Source: Zarea fungicola (taxonomy: Eukaryota; Ascomycota; Sordariomycetes; Hypocreales; Cordycipitaceae). From it: 64,000 bases of DNA. Shown piece after piece: positions 1 through 58,484 of the stretch (its first letter is position 1; each line of letters starts with the position of its first letter). The translations under genes and the position numbers were made by a program. The stretch spans positions 62,001-126,000 of the forward strand of contig FWCC01000135.1 of NCBI GenBank assembly GCA_900169235.1, given 5' to 3'. A model generated the notes under the pieces. The model searched no databases and was not told the DNA's origin. It saw only the letters and a program-made list of their open reading frames with translations.

Positions 1-790
1 CGCAATCACAACCCCAGATGGAAGCTCTCCAGGTACCGAGAGGATCCAGGACTTCAGGCCCAGTACATTATATTTTGACGCACTTCAGCTCAATCGTTCG
101 TGCCTCTTCAGACCAAAAAACGAGTGTGAAAAGAACAACAACCACAGCAGAGACGAATTGATCAGAACATATATCTCCAGATAGAATAACACATAATATC
201 ATAAATAAACGAATTAATGCTCAAGCCCAATAAGCGAAAGTGAGCTGTCAAACTGTTTATACGTGGGTAGGCGCGTCGCTGGGCCGTGGTGGGGCTTACA
301 TGCTTGTGAAGCAACGGTGGCGACATGCCATGTCCATTGCATTTATCCGCCCAGTGTGTGTAGAGTAATATTATCACGAAAATAGCTGAATCTCCATTTT
401 AATCGATTTCTACACATTGATAGAAGCAAATGAGTGTCATACCCTCGAACAAGCTAGGAAAACAACGGCAGCAGTCCAGAAAGAAGCGTTTGCCAACCAC
501 TTACCCTGGACCCTCTGAGGCAATGTAACGAGCATGGTTGGTCCTCCCACTCCTGTTATAAGAAGCAGTTGTTTCTGAATTAATGCTCTCTATAGTGTTA
601 ATTTCTATATTTTTGCTAGAATTGGTGCAGCGGAACAAGGGATCGTTACAGCCAACATGGGAAAGTGCTGTCGCGCTCGCAGTGAGTGTCTATAATTGGC
701 GTGCGGTAGCCTGAACGTGCGGGGACCACCGAGGTTGGGCTGAAGCTGTAAATAGAAGAATACCCACGCCTCTCACCATCGAAAATAATC
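1..790. other. Intergenic, no gene recognised
   Basis: No open frame here looks coding. A 12-codon ATG frame starts near 657 but has no support. The last bases flank the tRNA-Leu gene. Confidence 0.5.
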
Positions 791-944
791 GGTGAGATGG
801 CCGAGTTGGTAAGCAACCCTCAACAATCGTCGACTCATTCAACCAGTGTCTAACAACTTCAAAAGGTTATGGCGCCAGGTTAAGGTTACCTTAACATGTT
901 TCCTGGTGGAGCAATCCTCGTGGGTTCAAATCCCACTCTCATCA
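791..944 (+). tRNA. tRNA-Leu(AAG) with canonical intron and a 57-base D-loop insert
   Basis: The acceptor 5' strand at 791-797 pairs with 937-943, and the discriminator is A944. The anticodon stem is 875-879 with 902-906, and the anticodon AAG is at 882-884. A long variable arm and the A discriminator mark leucine. The T arm, with B box GGTTCAAATCC, ends at 936. A canonical intron of about 15 bases follows position 37 (886-900); its CCTTAA (889-894) pairs with the anticodon loop, as usual for pre-tRNA introns. Unusually, bases 809-865 interrupt the D-loop. They start GTAAGC, hold CTAAC at 850-854 and end AAAAG. Removing both inserts gives an 82-base class II tRNA with a D-stem of GCC/GGC and the conserved GG. 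Whether the D-loop insert is removed in the cell is unknown; the locus could instead be an interrupted pseudogene. Confidence 0.85.
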
Positions 945-2066
945 GAGTTCTTTTTTTGGACGTTGAATCTGTCAAGTAAGATCAACCAGCCAGTATTAGT
1001 CTAGCGGTTGATACAGCGGGAAGGCTTTAATTGTTTTTTTTGTGCAAAATCCACCATTTAAATTATGCTACGTGTAATTTCATCGTCCCTTTTTATTGAA
1101 AACAGAGGCAGAAATGTCTCGGATGGTACCGGTGAGCCACCTCCAATCAAGGAAGTGGAGATGGACCGCGTCAGCCACTTGTGGCGGTCTTGCGTGTTCT
1201 TATTCCGAAACAGAGGAGGGCGACATAGCCAAGGAAATACGCTTGCAAAAGTAGTCTATTTTACGTTTGTGAAATCAATATGCCCCGCCAACGCTACGTT
1301 TGAGCGGTAATTGTCGGCTCTGGAAGCGTCTGGCTGTGGCTCAGAGCTGGGTCGAAAACAGGTGTGGCGCGAACTAGGTCAGAGAGTGGTGACATCATCA
1401 ACATATTAGCTGCTTCCAGGTATGCAGCAGGTATGTAGCAGGCATGCAGCTAGGACACAATACAATGGAAGACGGCGGTAAAGCGGTAGGTGAAGCAACG
1501 CCAAAAAAATGAGGGTAAAATATTCTTTGAATTGTCGTGGTAATTATCAACATTATTTCCGCATTTCTTACTCTATTGATAGTCTATTGCGCCAGTATGA
1601 CAACACCCTCTCTTTGCTGGACGAGTGACAAGTACCCAGTACAAGACCCAGCTGGAACCTTGGCCCTCTTCGCCCCCGCAGTGGACATGCCGTTTTGGGC
1701 TCACGGCCACCGAAATACCTGGTTGCTGGATTTGCTGCGAGTGGGCCAAGCACTACGATCACGATCGTGGGACCTGCAATCCAGCTCCGTCACCGTGTTT
1801 GCAAATCTGCAACTGTCCAAGTACCCACTACCTTGGCACTGTCGCTTCTGGTACACATAGCAACCCCTTCTCCTCTCCGTTTCTGTTGGGTTAGACGACC
1901 TTTTCGGAAGCTAGTGAATAATCATGTAGTGAAATAAATCGTGTGCCCTCCCTTTCGTTCCCTTTTTCCTTGTCCCCCTCCTTCTCTCCCACACACCACC
2001 TTTTCAATCCATCCACAAACACACACACAATCTACACATTACAGGACTTCCTCACCAATAACCACC
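945..2066. other. Intergenic; possible truncated tRNA relic near 985-1040
   Basis: Around 989 there is an A-box-like TAGTCTAGCGG in a stretch resembling the 5' half of a tRNA, followed by eight Ts but with no B box or 3' half. The overlapping open frames between 1537 and 1937 have no domain-like features and are not called. The end of the interval (about 1945-2040) is pyrimidine-rich, as expected for the promoter and 5' leader of the next gene. Confidence 0.4.
951..957 (+). terminator. RNA polymerase III T-run terminator of tRNA-Leu
   Basis: Seven T residues begin seven bases after the mature 3' end of the tRNA. This is the usual Pol III stop and suggests that the gene is, or was, transcribed. 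Confidence 0.75.
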
Positions 2067-4362: not shown

Positions 4363-5045
4363 TTTGTCGTGTGAATTTATCGATTGGACGATTTTCGTTT
4401 AATGCCCAGTTACTGATATTTTGGTGACAAAATATCAATTGAAAAACACCGATTAATCTGCTCCACCGGTAGACAAAGACAAACTCAAAAGATGCGGAAT
4501 CAATTGGGATATTCAAATGGTTCAACAATGTTGGACTATTTCGCTGGACGGCCCTCTAAAACTTTTTTTAGTCCCAGAACTTTTTTTCTGGCCGCAGCAT
4601 AAATTTCGGCGCCTAGTGCTGCCGCTTCCGATGGGGTCACGTGAGAACTCTGGCTGGCTGGGCGAATGGCATGGCCTGGATTTTGGATGACAGTTGGATG
4701 ACAGCTAGATGGATATGATCAAGTGTAACAAAATACTTCAAAAATATATATAAATCGCAGGGAAAGGATTAGGAATTCGAAAGCTGGTGTTAGAGCTGGG
4801 CACATGTTCAAAGCACCTCAAGTGTGGCAGCACTCCAGCCGAGCGCAATGCTGTCCCATCATGTCACATTCACATACATAACACAGTCTTGTGACAAAGT
4901 AAATTGAATGCGAATTGAATCCGCGCTAGAGTGGCTATTCACCACACATCTATCTTGCGTGTCCCGCTCTTCTGATGTACAAAAAGCGCCCGCAGGCGTT
5001 TCACAAATACAACGCCCAGTTTATAGTCCCCCATGCGTTTTTTCT
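4363..5045. other. NHP2 promoter region and QCR8 3' side
   Basis: Contains a CACGTG E-box at 4638-4643, 276 bases upstream of the NHP2 start, and AT-rich DNA near 4740. No further gene was seen. Confidence 0.55.
4638..4643. promoter_or_regulatory. CACGTG E-box upstream of NHP2
   Basis: A palindromic CACGTG core lies 276 bases before the NHP2 start codon. It is a binding site type for basic helix-loop-helix factors such as Cbf1. Function is inferred from motif and position only. Confidence 0.4.
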
Positions 5046-21136: not shown

Positions 21137-22832
21137 ATGGCACGAGTCGATAAAAGTATCCCTAGGGTTCTTGTCCACGCCGAAGATGTTGCGCAACAGT
21201 TTGATTTGAGCCCTGATGCTGTTGCAACGATATCGAACGACTGTATCAGGCGGATGAGTACGAGAGATGCATGACGGCCGACTGCTTTGGCAGGTTTCGC
21301 TAACATCTTGGATAGATGAGTACCTCGAGCAAAACGGCGGAACGCAAATTCCTTGTTTCGTAACAAAACTGCCCAACGGCTCGGAAAAGGGAACCTTCTT
21401 GGCTGTTGATTTGGGTGGTACAAATTGCAGAGTGAACTCTGTGAAGTTGCATGGCGACTCAACGTATACCATTGCGCAGGCGAAACATGTCGTACCACGG
21501 AATGTCATGATCAACGCCAGTCATGAGCCTTTGTTCAACTTTATTGCTGAAAAAATCCAAGACTTTCTCGGAGCAAATTTCAAGGCGGATACCAGGGAAC
21601 ACAATTCGTTCAAGGAGAAAAATGACTACCAGAAACTTGCATTTACCTTCAGCTTTGCATGCACGAGCATTTCTCTCCACGAAGGCGTCATTCTGCATTG
21701 GGATAAAGGCTGGGACATTCCTTCGGCGATTGGAAGAGATCCATGTAAGCTGCTGCAAGAAGCCATTGACAGACTGAAACTACCTGTTCGCGTCGTAGCT
21801 CTCACAAACGACAGTGTGGGCACACTGATGGCTCAGGCGTACACGTCGCAGTCGAATATCTCCCCCCTGATGGGCGCAATCTTTGGTACTGGCACCAATG
21901 CTGCTTACTTTGAGCGCATGGAAAGTATCACGAAGCTACACACCACCAACGGCCACGGCGATTATTCCAGGTTTGCATCAATGGCGATCAACACAGAATG
22001 GGGAGCCTGGTTTGACAACGGTGTCGAGATACTACCTACAACATCCTACGATGAGTTTTTGGATGCAGCCAGCGGGGATCCGGGGAAGCATTTATTCGAG
22101 AAACGTGTTTCTGCTTTATATCTAGGAGAGCTTGCCAGGCTAGTTTTCGTACATATGATACAGGACGGCCTGCTCGACATGAAGGTGGACCAAGCTACCT
22201 CGCCTCTTTTTACACAGTACGGGTTAGGGGCCGCTTTCCTATCGCAGTTGGCTGCAGCCAAAAACGAGCATCTCAAGGAGATAGTACCTCGAATTTCAAG
22301 CACGCTGCAAGCGCAGAATGTCTCCACCAACGACGCTCGTGCACTCCGTGTAATCTCCATGGCAATTGTGCGACGTGCTGCAAGACTGGCGGGTGCGGCA
22401 ATTGGGGCAGTTATTATTCAATCCGGCCAACTGGATTTCGAAAACTCTGTGTCGAGATTTAGTAATGGCATGTATAGAGATTCGGGCACAATCGGCAGCA
22501 GGAGAAATCCGCGAAGCCAGCTGGCGAAAGGTCTGGCCGCGTCCGGTACTATGTTGGGAAACCTGGCTGCCTGCTTCAAGGAGACAATAAAGCAGCCAAC
22601 ACAATCATCTCCATCCAGAGGGACAACAGTCGTGTGGGCTCCAGAGTATTTTGTTGAGATTGGCATAGACGGATCGCTCTTTGAGCATTACTCGACATTT
22701 GAAGAAGATATTCGAGCTGCTATTCGGGACGTACCTCAAATTGGGTTCCAAGGAGAGTCATTGGTCAAGCTGAGGCTGATCCAGGACGGATCAAGTGTAG
22801 GCGGTGCTCTTGTTGCACAATCTGTGCGCTGA
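21137..22832 (+). CDS. hxk3: Hexokinase-family kinase, hxk3-like (probable GlcNAc kinase)
   Basis: Two exons, 21137-21257 and 21316-22832, encode 545 residues. The 58-base intron has donor GTACGA, branch CTAAC and acceptor TAG, and it is the only junction I found that joins exon 1 to the main frame. Hexokinase landmarks are present: phosphate loop VDLGGTN (71-77), LTNDSVGT with the catalytic Asp205, GTGTNAAYFE, INTEWGAWFDN and, in the large domain, HLFEKRVSALYLGELAR. The FSFP box reads FSFA, a departure from standard glucose hexokinases. In Trichoderma, Hxk3 is the GlcNAc kinase of the ron1 cluster, and the neighbours here agree. An atypical, regulatory hexokinase is the alternative, though the catalytic Asp argues for activity. 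Confidence 0.85.
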
Positions 22833-54974: not shown

Positions 54975-57900
54975 CTAGAAAGATCGGCTGGTATAAGACC
55001 AAGTGTACGAGTAGCTCGTCTGCGTAATCGTGCCCTTGATGTACCCAACCAGCGACCCATCCGCGGTCGAAAAGGTAATGTAAAACGGCCCATACTTGCC
55101 GCCCACCGACTTGAGGATGAAGCTGTACGACAGGCTGTTGAGCTGGCTCTTGATCTCGTCAATGGAGCCCGTAAACGACGCGCTGCCCTGGTTCGACGCC
55201 GCGTCCGTGCCCGTCGCCGTGCTCGCAATGGTTGTGCTCGTCGCCGGCGCCGTCGTCGACGTGGGCTTGGGGGGGATCTTGCTGCCAGCGTCAAAGACAA
55301 CCTTGCCCGAGGCGTCAAACGAGCCCGACACGTACCCGCTGTACGACCCGTCCACGTTGACCAGGAAAATCACAAACGGGCTGCCGTAGTTGCTGCCCAG
55401 GAGCTGGTGCAGCTGCGCGTCCGTCAGCTGGCCGCCGCTCGCAATGATGGACGCCGACAGCGTCGCGTCCGCGTTGACCGTCGTGGGACCACCCGGAGTA
55501 GGACGGGGGATGCTGCTGCTGCCGTTGAAAAAGACCTGGCCGTCGGCGCCGAAGCCGCCCGACACGGCGCCAATCTGGGCGCCGCTGCCGTCGACCAGGA
55601 TGATGTTGAAGGACTTGCCGTAGTTGCTGCCCAGGAGCTGCTTGAGGAGGTCGTCCGTCACCTTGCCCGCGGCCACGATGCTGGCAGACTGCGCGGCCGT
55701 GGCCGTCACGTCAATGGGCTTGGCGGCCGACTTGGGAATGTTTGTGCTGCTGTCGAACACGGGGTTGCCGTCGCCGTCAAACTTGCCCGAGATGAGGCCA
55801 ATCTCGTTGCCGTTGCTGTCGGTCAGGGTGATTTGGAAGGACCCGTTTCCATAGCGGTCGCCGAGAAGGGACTGGAGATCGGCCGGTGTGGCCTTGCCCG
55901 CCTGGATGATCTTGTTGGAGACGCTTGGGTTGGCAGTCACAATCAGAGGCTTGGCGGGAATGCTGGTGCTGGGGTCAAAGACCGGGCTGCCATTGCTGTC
56001 GAAGCTGCCGGAAATGCTGCCAATTTGCTTGCCGTTGTTGTCTGTGAGCAGAATCTTGAACTTTCCAAAGCCATAGTTGTCGCCGAGCAAGGCCTGGAGG
56101 TCACCGAGGGTGGCCTTGCCATTCTGGATGATACTGCTGGACCTGCCACCACTGGCCGTCACTGTAAAAACGTTGGAGGGAATGCTGGAGTTGGGGTTGA
56201 AGACTGGGTTGCCGTTGCTATCAAAGCTACCAGAGATGCTGCCAATCTGCTTTCCAGTGCTGTCGGTCAGGTTGATCAGGAATGTACCCTTGCCGTAGTT
56301 CGGGCCCAGGAGAGCCTGAAGGTCGCTGACGGACGCCTTGCCAGCCTGGACAATGCTGCTTGACCTGCCGGCGTTTGCCGTTACGGTGGTGAGGCCAGCT
56401 GGGATGTTTGTGTTCGAGTCGAAGACCGGGTTGCCATTGGCATCAAAGCTGCCAGAAACGGTACCAATCTGCTTCCCATTGCTATCAGTCAGCATGATCT
56501 TGAATGTACCCTTGCCGTAGTTCTGGCCAAGGATAGCCTTGAGGTCGTTGACAGAAGCCTTGCCAGCCTGGATAATGGCGTTTGATTTGCCGGCATCTGC
56601 GGTCACGGTGGTAAGACCAGCTGGGATGTTTGTATTCGAGTCGAAGACCGGGTTACCGTCGGCATCAAAGCTGCCAGACACGGTACCAATTTGCTTTCCA
56701 GCGTCATCCGTCAGGTTGATCTTGAAGGATCCAAAACCGTATCCATTACCAAGCAAGCTCTGTAGGACTTGGTTGCTGACTTTGCCAGCCTGGATAATGC
56801 CTCGGGACACACTGCCACTCGCTGTGACGGTAGTCGGGCTAGGTTTCGGGATGTTGGTATTGGAGTCAAAGGTAGGGTTGCCGTTGCCATCAAAGCTGCC
56901 AGAAACTTGGCCAATTTGCTTTCCTGCGTCGTCCGTCAGATTGATCAGGAAAGAGCCAAAACCATAGCCATCGCCAAGCAAGTTCTGTAAGACTTGGTTG
57001 CTGGCTTTGCCGGCCTGGATAATACCGCGGGACACACTGCCACTCGCTGTGACGGTAGTCGGGTTTGGTTTCGGAATGCTGGTATTGGAGTCTAGAGAAG
57101 GGTTGCCGTCGCTGTCAAAGCTACCAGACACTTGGCCAATCTTGTTTCCGGAGTTGTCCGTCAAGGTAATTACAAAGGAGCCTGAACCATAATTATCACC
57201 AAGCAGGCCTTGCAAATCACCAATCGTGATTCTACCAGCTTGGATAATGCTGGCAGACCTACCACCGCTCGCCGTCACGGTGATCGGGCCAGCCTTGGGG
57301 ATGTTGGTGTTGGAGTCAAAGGTAGGGTTGCCGTTGCTGTCGAAGCTTCCCGACACTTGGCCAATCTGCTTTCCAGAATTATCTGTCAAGATAATCTTGA
57401 AAGGACCAGCACCGTAATTGGCACCGAGCAATGCCTGTAGGGTACCGACGGTGGCTTTGCCAGCTTGAATAATGCTGCTCGATCTGGCACCGCTGGCAGT
57501 GACGGTAAACACGTTGGGTTTAGGGATATTCGTGTTGGAGTCAAAGGTAGGGTTGCCGTTGCTGTCGAAGCTTCCCGACACTTGGCCAATCTGCTTTCCA
57601 CTATTATCTGTCAGGATAATCTTGAAAGAACCGAAGCCGTAATTGGAACCAAGCAGCGCCTGCAAGTCGCCAACAGTCGCCTTGCCGGCCTGGATGATGC
57701 TGCCGGATCTGCCGCCGTTGGCGGTGACGGTGAATACGCTGGCCTTGGGAATAGAGATATCCGGGTCAAAGCGGACGCCGTCGGAGGTGAAGGTACCGGA
57801 CACGACGCCAGCAGGTGCGCCACCGGGACCCGGGAAGATGATCCTGAAGGGTCGGCCATAGTCATTACCAAGGAGGGAGACCAGGTCACTGTCGGAGACG

Positions 57901-58484
57901 GAACCGCGGGCTATGATGCCCTGGGCAATGGCGCCGGTGGCAGTCACAGTGATGGGCTGGATCAGGCCAGGCTGCTTCGGGATGGTAGGGGGAACGGCCC
58001 CGTATGGGTTTCGATTGGTCGTGTCAAACGTGACGCTGCCGTCCGTTGTGAAGTAGCCTACAAGGTAACCCACCAGGCCGCGAGTGGTCGAGTCATAGAA
58101 GGGGATAACAAAGGGCTTGCCAAAGTTGTTGGCTAGCAAACGCTGCAACGTAGCGATGTTGAGGTTGTTGATGAAGTTGACAATCTGTGGCGGCGAACCA
58201 ACAATGTTGCTGGTGGTGACAAAGCTGGCGCTAGACGCTGAGGTAATGTTGGCAACACGGGAAAATCTAGAGACGTCTTTCCCGTCATTGGGCACGATTT
58301 TGACACCACTCGGATCGGTAATGGTGGAAGCAGAGTCGACCTCAGCAAGGGTATTGGAAACAGGGACCGAGCCAATGGCACCGGCAGCTACATCGCTGAC
58401 GGTTGAGTTGCGAGCCTGCTCAAGACCTCGGGCCAATGCATAGCCGACAAAGCAGGTAACAAGCGATGCCGTGGAAACTCTCAT
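54975..58484 (-). CDS. Large secreted protein with twelve tandem repeats of ~75 residues
   Basis: One exon encodes 1,169 residues. The start at 58484 is chosen because GCCACC ATG precedes MRVSTASLVTCFVGYALARG, a signal peptide; an in-frame ATG 48 bases further upstream would bury it. From about residue 178 to 1070 there are twelve units of 73-77 residues. Each has TVTA at the front, then SIIQAGKA-like, DLQALLGxNYG, FKIxLTD, GKQIGxVSGSFD, GNPxFDSNTNIP. A degenerate unit lies before them (about 100-175) and another at the C terminus. A Ser/Thr-rich linker (about 1072-1105) precedes the last unit. There is no GPI-anchor-like tail or cysteine-rich module. The repeats are probably beta-rich domains, suggesting a cell-surface or matrix protein, possibly an adhesin. 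This is inference; I recognise no family. A TATATA box lies about 120 bases upstream on the same strand (58602-58607). Confidence 0.88.
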   Translation of the reverse strand: MRVSTASLVTCFVGYALARGLEQARNSTVSDVAAGAIGSVPVSNTLAEVDSASTITDPSGVKIVPNDGKDVSRFSRVANITSASSASFVTTSNIVGSPPQIVNFINNLNIATLQRLLANNFGKPFVIPFYDSTTRGLVGYLVGYFTTDGSVTFDTTNRNPYGAVPPTIPKQPGLIQPITVTATGAIAQGIIARGSVSDSDLVSLLGNDYGRPFRIIFPGPGGAPAGVVSGTFTSDGVRFDPDISIPKASVFTVTANGGRSGSIIQAGKATVGDLQALLGSNYGFGSFKIILTDNSGKQIGQVSGSFDSNGNPTFDSNTNIPKPNVFTVTASGARSSSIIQAGKATVGTLQALLGANYGAGPFKIILTDNSGKQIGQVSGSFDSNGNPTFDSNTNIPKAGPITVTASGGRSASIIQAGRITIGDLQGLLGDNYGSGSFVITLTDNSGNKIGQVSGSFDSDGNPSLDSNTSIPKPNPTTVTASGSVSRGIIQAGKASNQVLQNLLGDGYGFGSFLINLTDDAGKQIGQVSGSFDGNGNPTFDSNTNIPKPSPTTVTASGSVSRGIIQAGKVSNQVLQSLLGNGYGFGSFKINLTDDAGKQIGTVSGSFDADGNPVFDSNTNIPAGLTTVTADAGKSNAIIQAGKASVNDLKAILGQNYGKGTFKIMLTDSNGKQIGTVSGSFDANGNPVFDSNTNIPAGLTTVTANAGRSSSIVQAGKASVSDLQALLGPNYGKGTFLINLTDSTGKQIGSISGSFDSNGNPVFNPNSSIPSNVFTVTASGGRSSSIIQNGKATLGDLQALLGDNYGFGKFKILLTDNNGKQIGSISGSFDSNGSPVFDPSTSIPAKPLIVTANPSVSNKIIQAGKATPADLQSLLGDRYGNGSFQITLTDSNGNEIGLISGKFDGDGNPVFDSSTNIPKSAAKPIDVTATAAQSASIVAAGKVTDDLLKQLLGSNYGKSFNIILVDGSGAQIGAVSGGFGADGQVFFNGSSSIPRPTPGGPTTVNADATLSASIIASGGQLTDAQLHQLLGSNYGSPFVIFLVNVDGSYSGYVSGSFDASGKVVFDAGSKIPPKPTSTTAPATSTTIASTATGTDAASNQGSASFTGSIDEIKSQLNSLSYSFILKSVGGKYGPFYITFSTADGSLVGYIKGTITQTSYSYTWSYTSRSF
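55275..57950 (-). repeat. Tandem repeat array in the secreted protein gene (12 units of ~223 bp)
   Basis: Twelve successive coding units of about 220-230 bases. Units 2-10 are most alike; units 5 and 6 share the SVSRGIIQAGK variant and units 6-8 share a GNPVF variant. That pattern points to stepwise duplication rather than one event. Outer units are most diverged. Confidence 0.88.

Follow-up and report, generated by a model that had tools for sequence, protein, structure and literature searches.

A 64-kb stretch of fungal DNA (hereafter the window; positions 62001-126000 of contig C123 in an assembly of 43.1 Mb and 456 contigs) carries a transfer RNA (tRNA) gene, tRNA-Leu(AAG), with a 57-base insert in its D-loop. 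Very probably the insert is a spliceosomal intron of the U2 type and its host a functional nuclear gene; inserts of this kind number at least nine in the genome, spread over eight tRNA genes. Four features demonstrated in the genomic DNA carry this reading: the splice signals of the inserts, the exact restoration of the tRNA sequence in two pairs of genes with and without an intron, the conservation of exons and not of inserts, and the intact A and B boxes and T runs of the host genes.

Results

Architecture of the window tRNA-Leu(AAG) gene

The gene and its elements lie as follows.

791-944, plus strand: tRNA-Leu(AAG) gene, 154 bp including both introns; mature form 82 nt; spliced form called Leu(aag) by ARAGORN
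798-809, plus strand: A box TGGCCGAGTTGG, by direct reading
809-865, plus strand: 57-base intron of spliceosomal type, inserted between D-loop positions 18 and 19 (numbered by hand)
809-814, plus strand: 5' splice site GTAAGC
850-854, plus strand: branch-point motif CTAAC, whose branch A (853) lies 12 bases ahead of the final intron base
863-865, plus strand: 3' splice site AAG, the earliest AG downstream of the branch point
886-900, plus strand: ordinary 15-base tRNA intron TTACCTTAACATGTT at the canonical position 37/38; ARAGORN i(39,15)
923-933, plus strand: B box GGTTCAAATCC
951-957, plus strand: T7 run, a terminator of the RNA polymerase III (Pol III) type

Direct reading gives an acceptor stem GGTGAGA/TCTCATC followed by A73. 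The A box remains complete in the interrupted gene because its last G is also the first base of the insert (809). Eleven bases separate CTAAC from the end of the insert at 865, which terminates in AAAAG (861-865), and the preliminary description, which had reported a 57-base insert at 809-865 with GTAAGC, CTAAC and AAAAG, is borne out on all of these points. Its further claim, that excision restores the D-arm and that removal of the 15-base intron then leaves an 82-base tRNA, was confirmed by direct reading and by ARAGORN; the D-stem GCC/GGC forms on removal of the insert. ARAGORN at default settings and Rfam at the gathering cut-off reported no tRNA in the raw 64-kb window. When the raw gene alone was submitted with introns of up to 200 bases allowed, ARAGORN mistook it for Arg with an intron of 76 bases; with the insert removed it calls Leu(aag) with the 15-base intron. 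The splice boundary 809/865 can be placed in four equivalent positions spanning 3 bases, and ARAGORN accepts 93 of 169 trial excisions around the insert, so that the exact boundary cannot be fixed by this program and the exactness of excision rests on other gene pairs.

A genome search with window positions 760-960 returned a gene of identical layout at 91% identity, a second tRNA-Leu(AAG) on C276 (32233-32408) with its insert likewise at 18/19. Between the two genes the exons are identical at 82/82 positions and the canonical intron at 15/15, against 46/57 for the insert (Fisher p 3.0e-5); the bases that the inserts have in common include GTAAGC, GTGTCTAACAAC and the closing AAG. In a DNA search with the gene and its insert, which was not exhaustive, the C276 locus was the sole other copy of the insert. 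The same genome also has three uninterrupted Leu(AAG) genes in tandem on C450 (aag by ARAGORN), which are of a sequence type other than that of the window gene. C450 also holds one gene that we read by hand as Leu(CAG).

Interrupted tRNA genes elsewhere in the genome

Counting the window gene, the genome has at least eight interrupted nuclear tRNA genes, with nine inserts of 53-69 bases at six tRNA positions. The genes beyond the two Leu(AAG) copies are listed here, with insert positions numbered by hand.

C98: tRNA-Leu(TAA), insert at 34/35
C427: two tRNA-Leu(CAG) genes, inserts at 20a/21
C172: tRNA-Thr(CGT), insert at 35/36
C357: tRNA-Trp(CCA), one insert, at 47/48
C341: tRNA-Trp(CCA), two inserts, at 24/25 (56 bases, in the D-stem, GTTAGT to CATCAG) and at 47/48

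None of the nine inserts lies at the canonical tRNA intron position 37/38; seven of the genes also have an intron there, an assignment that agrees with ARAGORN for the Leu genes and was made by hand for the Trp genes. All eight genes have intact A and B boxes, although the box-scan patterns themselves selected for these, and all eight are followed by a run of 5-11 T residues. In Leu(TAA) and Thr(CGT) the insert splits the anticodon, which becomes whole only once the insert has been spliced out.

These six further genes came from scans for A and B boxes at enlarged spacing, which made no selection for splice signals, from one signal-selected scan and from an Rfam genome search. Five A-to-B-box scans yielded 7, 39, 17, 30 and 14 matches (overlapping), with 0, 18, 29, 36 and 26 for the respective reversed-pattern controls; the last four control values indicate that most matches of the corresponding scans are background. 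Matches were sorted by eye on at most 80 letters each, and from the later four scans only interrupted-looking loci were fetched. Since such scans are blind to genes with split or diverged boxes, eight genes is a lower bound. The Rfam genome search scored 63 of 1250 candidates and missed the C450 Leu genes, so its list is incomplete. Pattern scans for the Leu(AAG) arrangement in bacterial, archaeal and viral contigs gave 0 matches, a result that says little about fungi.

In one genome search each, the spliced Leu(TAA) and Trp(CCA) sequences found interrupted genes only. If this search result stands, decoding of UGG would depend on interrupted Trp(CCA) genes.

Three Ala/Pro-like genes, two on C226 and one on C343, have long inserts at or near 37/38; no GT..AG was seen in them by eye, and they were kept as canonical-position introns and left out of the set. 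Two of these inserts measure 48 and 64 bases by ARAGORN and neither fits GTNNGY/CTRAY/AG; the third, on C226, was fetched only partly. The three genes have Pro-like bodies with G3:U70 (by hand), and ARAGORN calls two of them Ala. In the C226 gene that it calls Ala(CGC), a C stands where U33 is usual (hand count).

Splice signals of the inserts

All nine inserts begin GTNNGY, contain CTAAY (which fits CTRAY) and end in AG, with the branch A 11-16 bases ahead of the final base in each; the AG used is the first past the branch A in 8/9. The criteria GTNNGY/CTRAY/AG are generic, but were drawn up after the inserts had been seen. For comparison, ARAGORN gave 33 intron rows in the fetched loci, made up of the Thr insert (1), misread genes of the present set (6) and ordinary tRNA introns (26), and the combination occurs in 0/26 of the ordinary ones. 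Three coding introns placed by homology within the window provide a second, small comparison set.

31062-31004, minus strand: amidase coding intron, 59 bases; GTTAGC, GCTGAC, TAG
31357-31315, minus strand: amidase coding intron, 43 bases; GTTCCA, GCTAAC, CAG
21258-21315: glucokinase coding intron, 58 bases; GTACGA, GCTAAC, TAG

The branch and 3' sites of these introns agree with those of the tRNA inserts in 3/3 cases and the GTNNGY 5' site in 1/3 (GTTAGC).

The signal triple by itself is not rare. In its strict form it occurs twice in the 64-kb window against 0.7 expected, and in a looser form 69 times, where simulation gave a mean of 94.4; what is not due to chance is its coincidence with the gap in a tRNA gene, in nine of nine inserts. 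For a random insert of the same composition and with a fixed boundary, the joint chance of GTNNGY/CTRAY/AG is ~1.1e-5 per insert.

Gene pairs with and without an intron

Cutting Thr(CGT) of C172 at its GT and AG yields a sequence identical at 72/72 bases to an intronless Thr(CGT) gene on C170. Likewise, the D-stem intron of the C341 Trp gene is absent from its sister on C357, and the mature exons of the two are identical (72/72). At the level of genomic sequence, these two pairs show the presence and absence of single putative introns in tRNA genes, and they pin the splice boundaries to within one base. The variable-loop intron that the Trp genes have in common matches in 44/57 columns, against 72/72 for their exons (Fisher p 1.0e-5), and in the Leu(CAG) pair the figures are 45/57 for the insert against 79/79 for the exons (Fisher p 1.4e-5). 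With the Leu(AAG) pair of C123 and C276, the mature exons are therefore 100% identical in three pairs while the inserts differ, which argues that these genes are not decayed pseudogenes.

A U6 small nuclear RNA gene with a similar intron

A U6 small nuclear RNA (snRNA) gene on C377 contains a 59-base intron (4508-4566) that runs from GTAAGT to CCCAG with CACTAAC inside. Its removal leaves GGAT joined to GACACGCAATCTC (joint GGAT/GACACGC), followed by a T9 run. The full-length Rfam match to U6 at this locus conceals the intron, and the alignment extends into it; the gene was the only U6 match listed in a search that scored 47 of 2762 candidates. Within the intron lies a B-box-like sequence, GAGTTCGAAACCCC, which resembles the arrangement in fission yeast U6. 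U6 is a Pol III gene, and the presence of the same signals in its intron means that a Pol III gene bearing the same kind of intron exists in this genome.

Other features of the window and the assembly

Shortly past the terminator of the Leu gene, at 991-1035, lies a tRNA-like A-box sequence, TAGTCTAGCGGTTGATAC, with no partner B box seen by eye within ~200 bases; it is possibly a tRNA fragment. On the minus strand at 54975-58484 an open frame of 1169 aa contains many repeats of ~60 residues (FTVTASGGRSSSIIQ..LLGxNYGxGxFKI..), and its N-terminus appears signal-like by eye. C218 is a mitochondrial genome. Its nad4 points to Cordycipitaceae, with 97% identity to the best match and 96% to Samsoniella and Cordyceps. 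The nuclear glucokinase of the window has at most 50% identity to named fungi, with 77% and 66% to two other entries, and the nuclear amidase 58% at best to named fungi, with 68% to one other entry. The nuclear lineage may be divergent or fast-evolving, or the assembly may be mixed.

Discussion

Taken together, the splice signals, seven further genes, two with/without pairs, the exon/insert contrast and the U6 intron lend strong sequence support to the suggestion in the preliminary description that a Pol III transcript is spliced by the spliceosome. In the mechanism that we propose, Pol III would transcribe each gene, from the intact A and B boxes through to the downstream T run; the spliceosome would recognise the 53-69 base introns through GTNNGY, CTAAY and AG and join the exons in the nucleus; and the tRNA endonuclease and ligase would then act on the restored body, removing the 37/38 intron where there is one. 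Leu(TAA) suggests that the spliceosome acts first, since the anticodon facing its canonical intron is not whole until the first splice has taken place. Beyond the single genes, we think it reasonably likely that spliceosomal introns have repeatedly invaded the nuclear tRNA genes of this lineage, with decoding of UGG (Trp) and UUA (Leu) dependent on the spliceosome, single Pol III transcripts handled by two splicing machineries of unrelated kind, and U6 belonging to the very system that produces it.

A number of observations weigh against this reading. The 3' ends of the inserts comprise five CAG and four AAG, and AAG is a less usual 3' splice site; the Leu(CAG) inserts carry CTAAT, and one of them has an earlier AG near the branch point. 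One of the three coding introns itself has an unusual 5' site, GTTCCA. A T5 run inside the Leu(TAA) insert equals the terminator of the Thr gene in length. For the Trp sequence the predicted fold departs from the cloverleaf, and hand reading shows an A31-C39 mismatch. Intronless Leu(AAG) (C450) and Thr(CGT) (C170) genes are present, and the interrupted copies of these are perhaps dispensable. The Trp query matched part of the C357 gene and missed C341, with its short exon pieces, so that a diverged intact copy could escape it, and the assembly, in 456 contigs, may be incomplete, so that intact Leu(TAA) or Trp(CCA) copies may exist outside it.

Among the alternatives, it is distinctly unlikely that the introns are spliceosomal but are removed from read-through transcripts of RNA polymerase II (Pol II). 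Spliceosomes normally work on Pol II transcripts, which is established knowledge and speaks for this view; the A and B boxes and the T runs of at least five in 8/8 genes, and the like intron in the Pol III gene U6, speak for Pol III, but both observations are compatible with Pol II all the same.

It is in our view highly improbable that the tRNA splicing endonuclease cuts the inserts at a bulge-helix-bulge motif, which would make them non-canonical introns like those of archaeal or red-algal tRNAs. According to passages in PMC3978253 and PMC4090602, endonuclease-type introns are known in Crenarchaeota (in the D-arm, anticodon-arm, variable-arm and other positions), in Cyanidioschyzon and in nucleomorphs, and many nucleomorph tRNA introns have no defined bulge-helix-bulge motif. 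As described there, these introns resemble the present ones in their non-canonical positions and in sometimes occurring several to a gene; they are, however, treated as substrates of the tRNA endonuclease, many with a bulge-helix-bulge, whereas the inserts here have U2-type signals and no complete motif. When all equivalent boundaries and two geometries were considered, the four central pairs of the motif were found in 0/9 inserts as opposed to 3/7 canonical introns of the same genes. The Thr insert comes nearest, with three central pairs, and since 4/7 canonical introns also fail, relaxed motifs are possible; but under the endonuclease model there is no reason to expect GTNNGY, CTAAY and AG in all nine inserts.

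Least probable is that these are dead tRNA copies broken by random insertions or mobile intron-like elements: intronless Leu(AAG) and Thr(CGT) genes do occur elsewhere in the genome, but mature exons have stayed identical in three diverged pairs while the inserts changed, Leu(TAA) and Trp(CCA) were found only interrupted, splice signals are kept in 9/9 inserts with promoter boxes and terminators intact, and the window insert had no copies beyond C276 in the non-exhaustive DNA search. The version of this idea in the preliminary description, an insertion that killed one tRNA copy, is not supported, given that the exons of the C276 gene are identical and the inserts differ at 11 of 57 positions. 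Of the two marks of a pseudogene that it named, uninterrupted Leu(AAG) copies do exist, on C450 and of the other sequence type, and mutations in the spliced form were not found.

A spliceosomal origin of the inserts can also be compared with known systems. Tani and Ohshima in 1989 and Canzler et al. in 2016 reportedly described spliceosomal introns in fungal U6 snRNA genes. These are alike in that a short GT-AG intron with a branch point sits in a small structured Pol III transcript, as in C377; they are unlike the present case in that the host here is a tRNA, that several sites and genes are involved, and that for most of these tRNAs the canonical intron has to be removed by another pathway, unrelated to the first. 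As of 2017, according to PMC5832005, frequent interruption by introns was known among small structured RNAs only for U3 small nucleolar RNA and U6; that source describes the introns of fungal U3, itself a small structured RNA, as normal spliceosomal ones, a likeness to our inserts, but tRNA is not among the RNAs with spliceosomal introns in the passages concerned. In ascomycetes (lichens), ribosomal DNA contains spliceosomal introns, one of 57 bp; the spliceosome excises them, and does so too after their transfer to yeast ribosomal DNA, as reported in PMC8527467. There too, ectopic spliceosomal introns lie in the gene of a stable non-Pol II RNA, but that RNA is a ribosomal RNA made by RNA polymerase I, whereas here it is a Pol III tRNA. 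Searches of an open-licence paper library brought up no account of nuclear tRNA genes with spliceosomal introns.

The introns of tRNA genes, cut by a protein endonuclease and mostly at 37/38, and those of messenger RNA (mRNA), removed by the spliceosome from Pol II transcripts, are treated as separate. Standard tRNA searches can miss genes such as those described here, as the blank results of both ARAGORN and Rfam on the window gene illustrate. If the spliceosomal introns of several tRNA genes are functional, they would end the division between tRNA and mRNA introns, and would be strong evidence that recruiting the spliceosome needs no Pol II transcript. They would also offer a natural system of intron gain in which exon restoration is required to the exact base and, if the reading is true, translation in this fungus would be made directly dependent on splicing.
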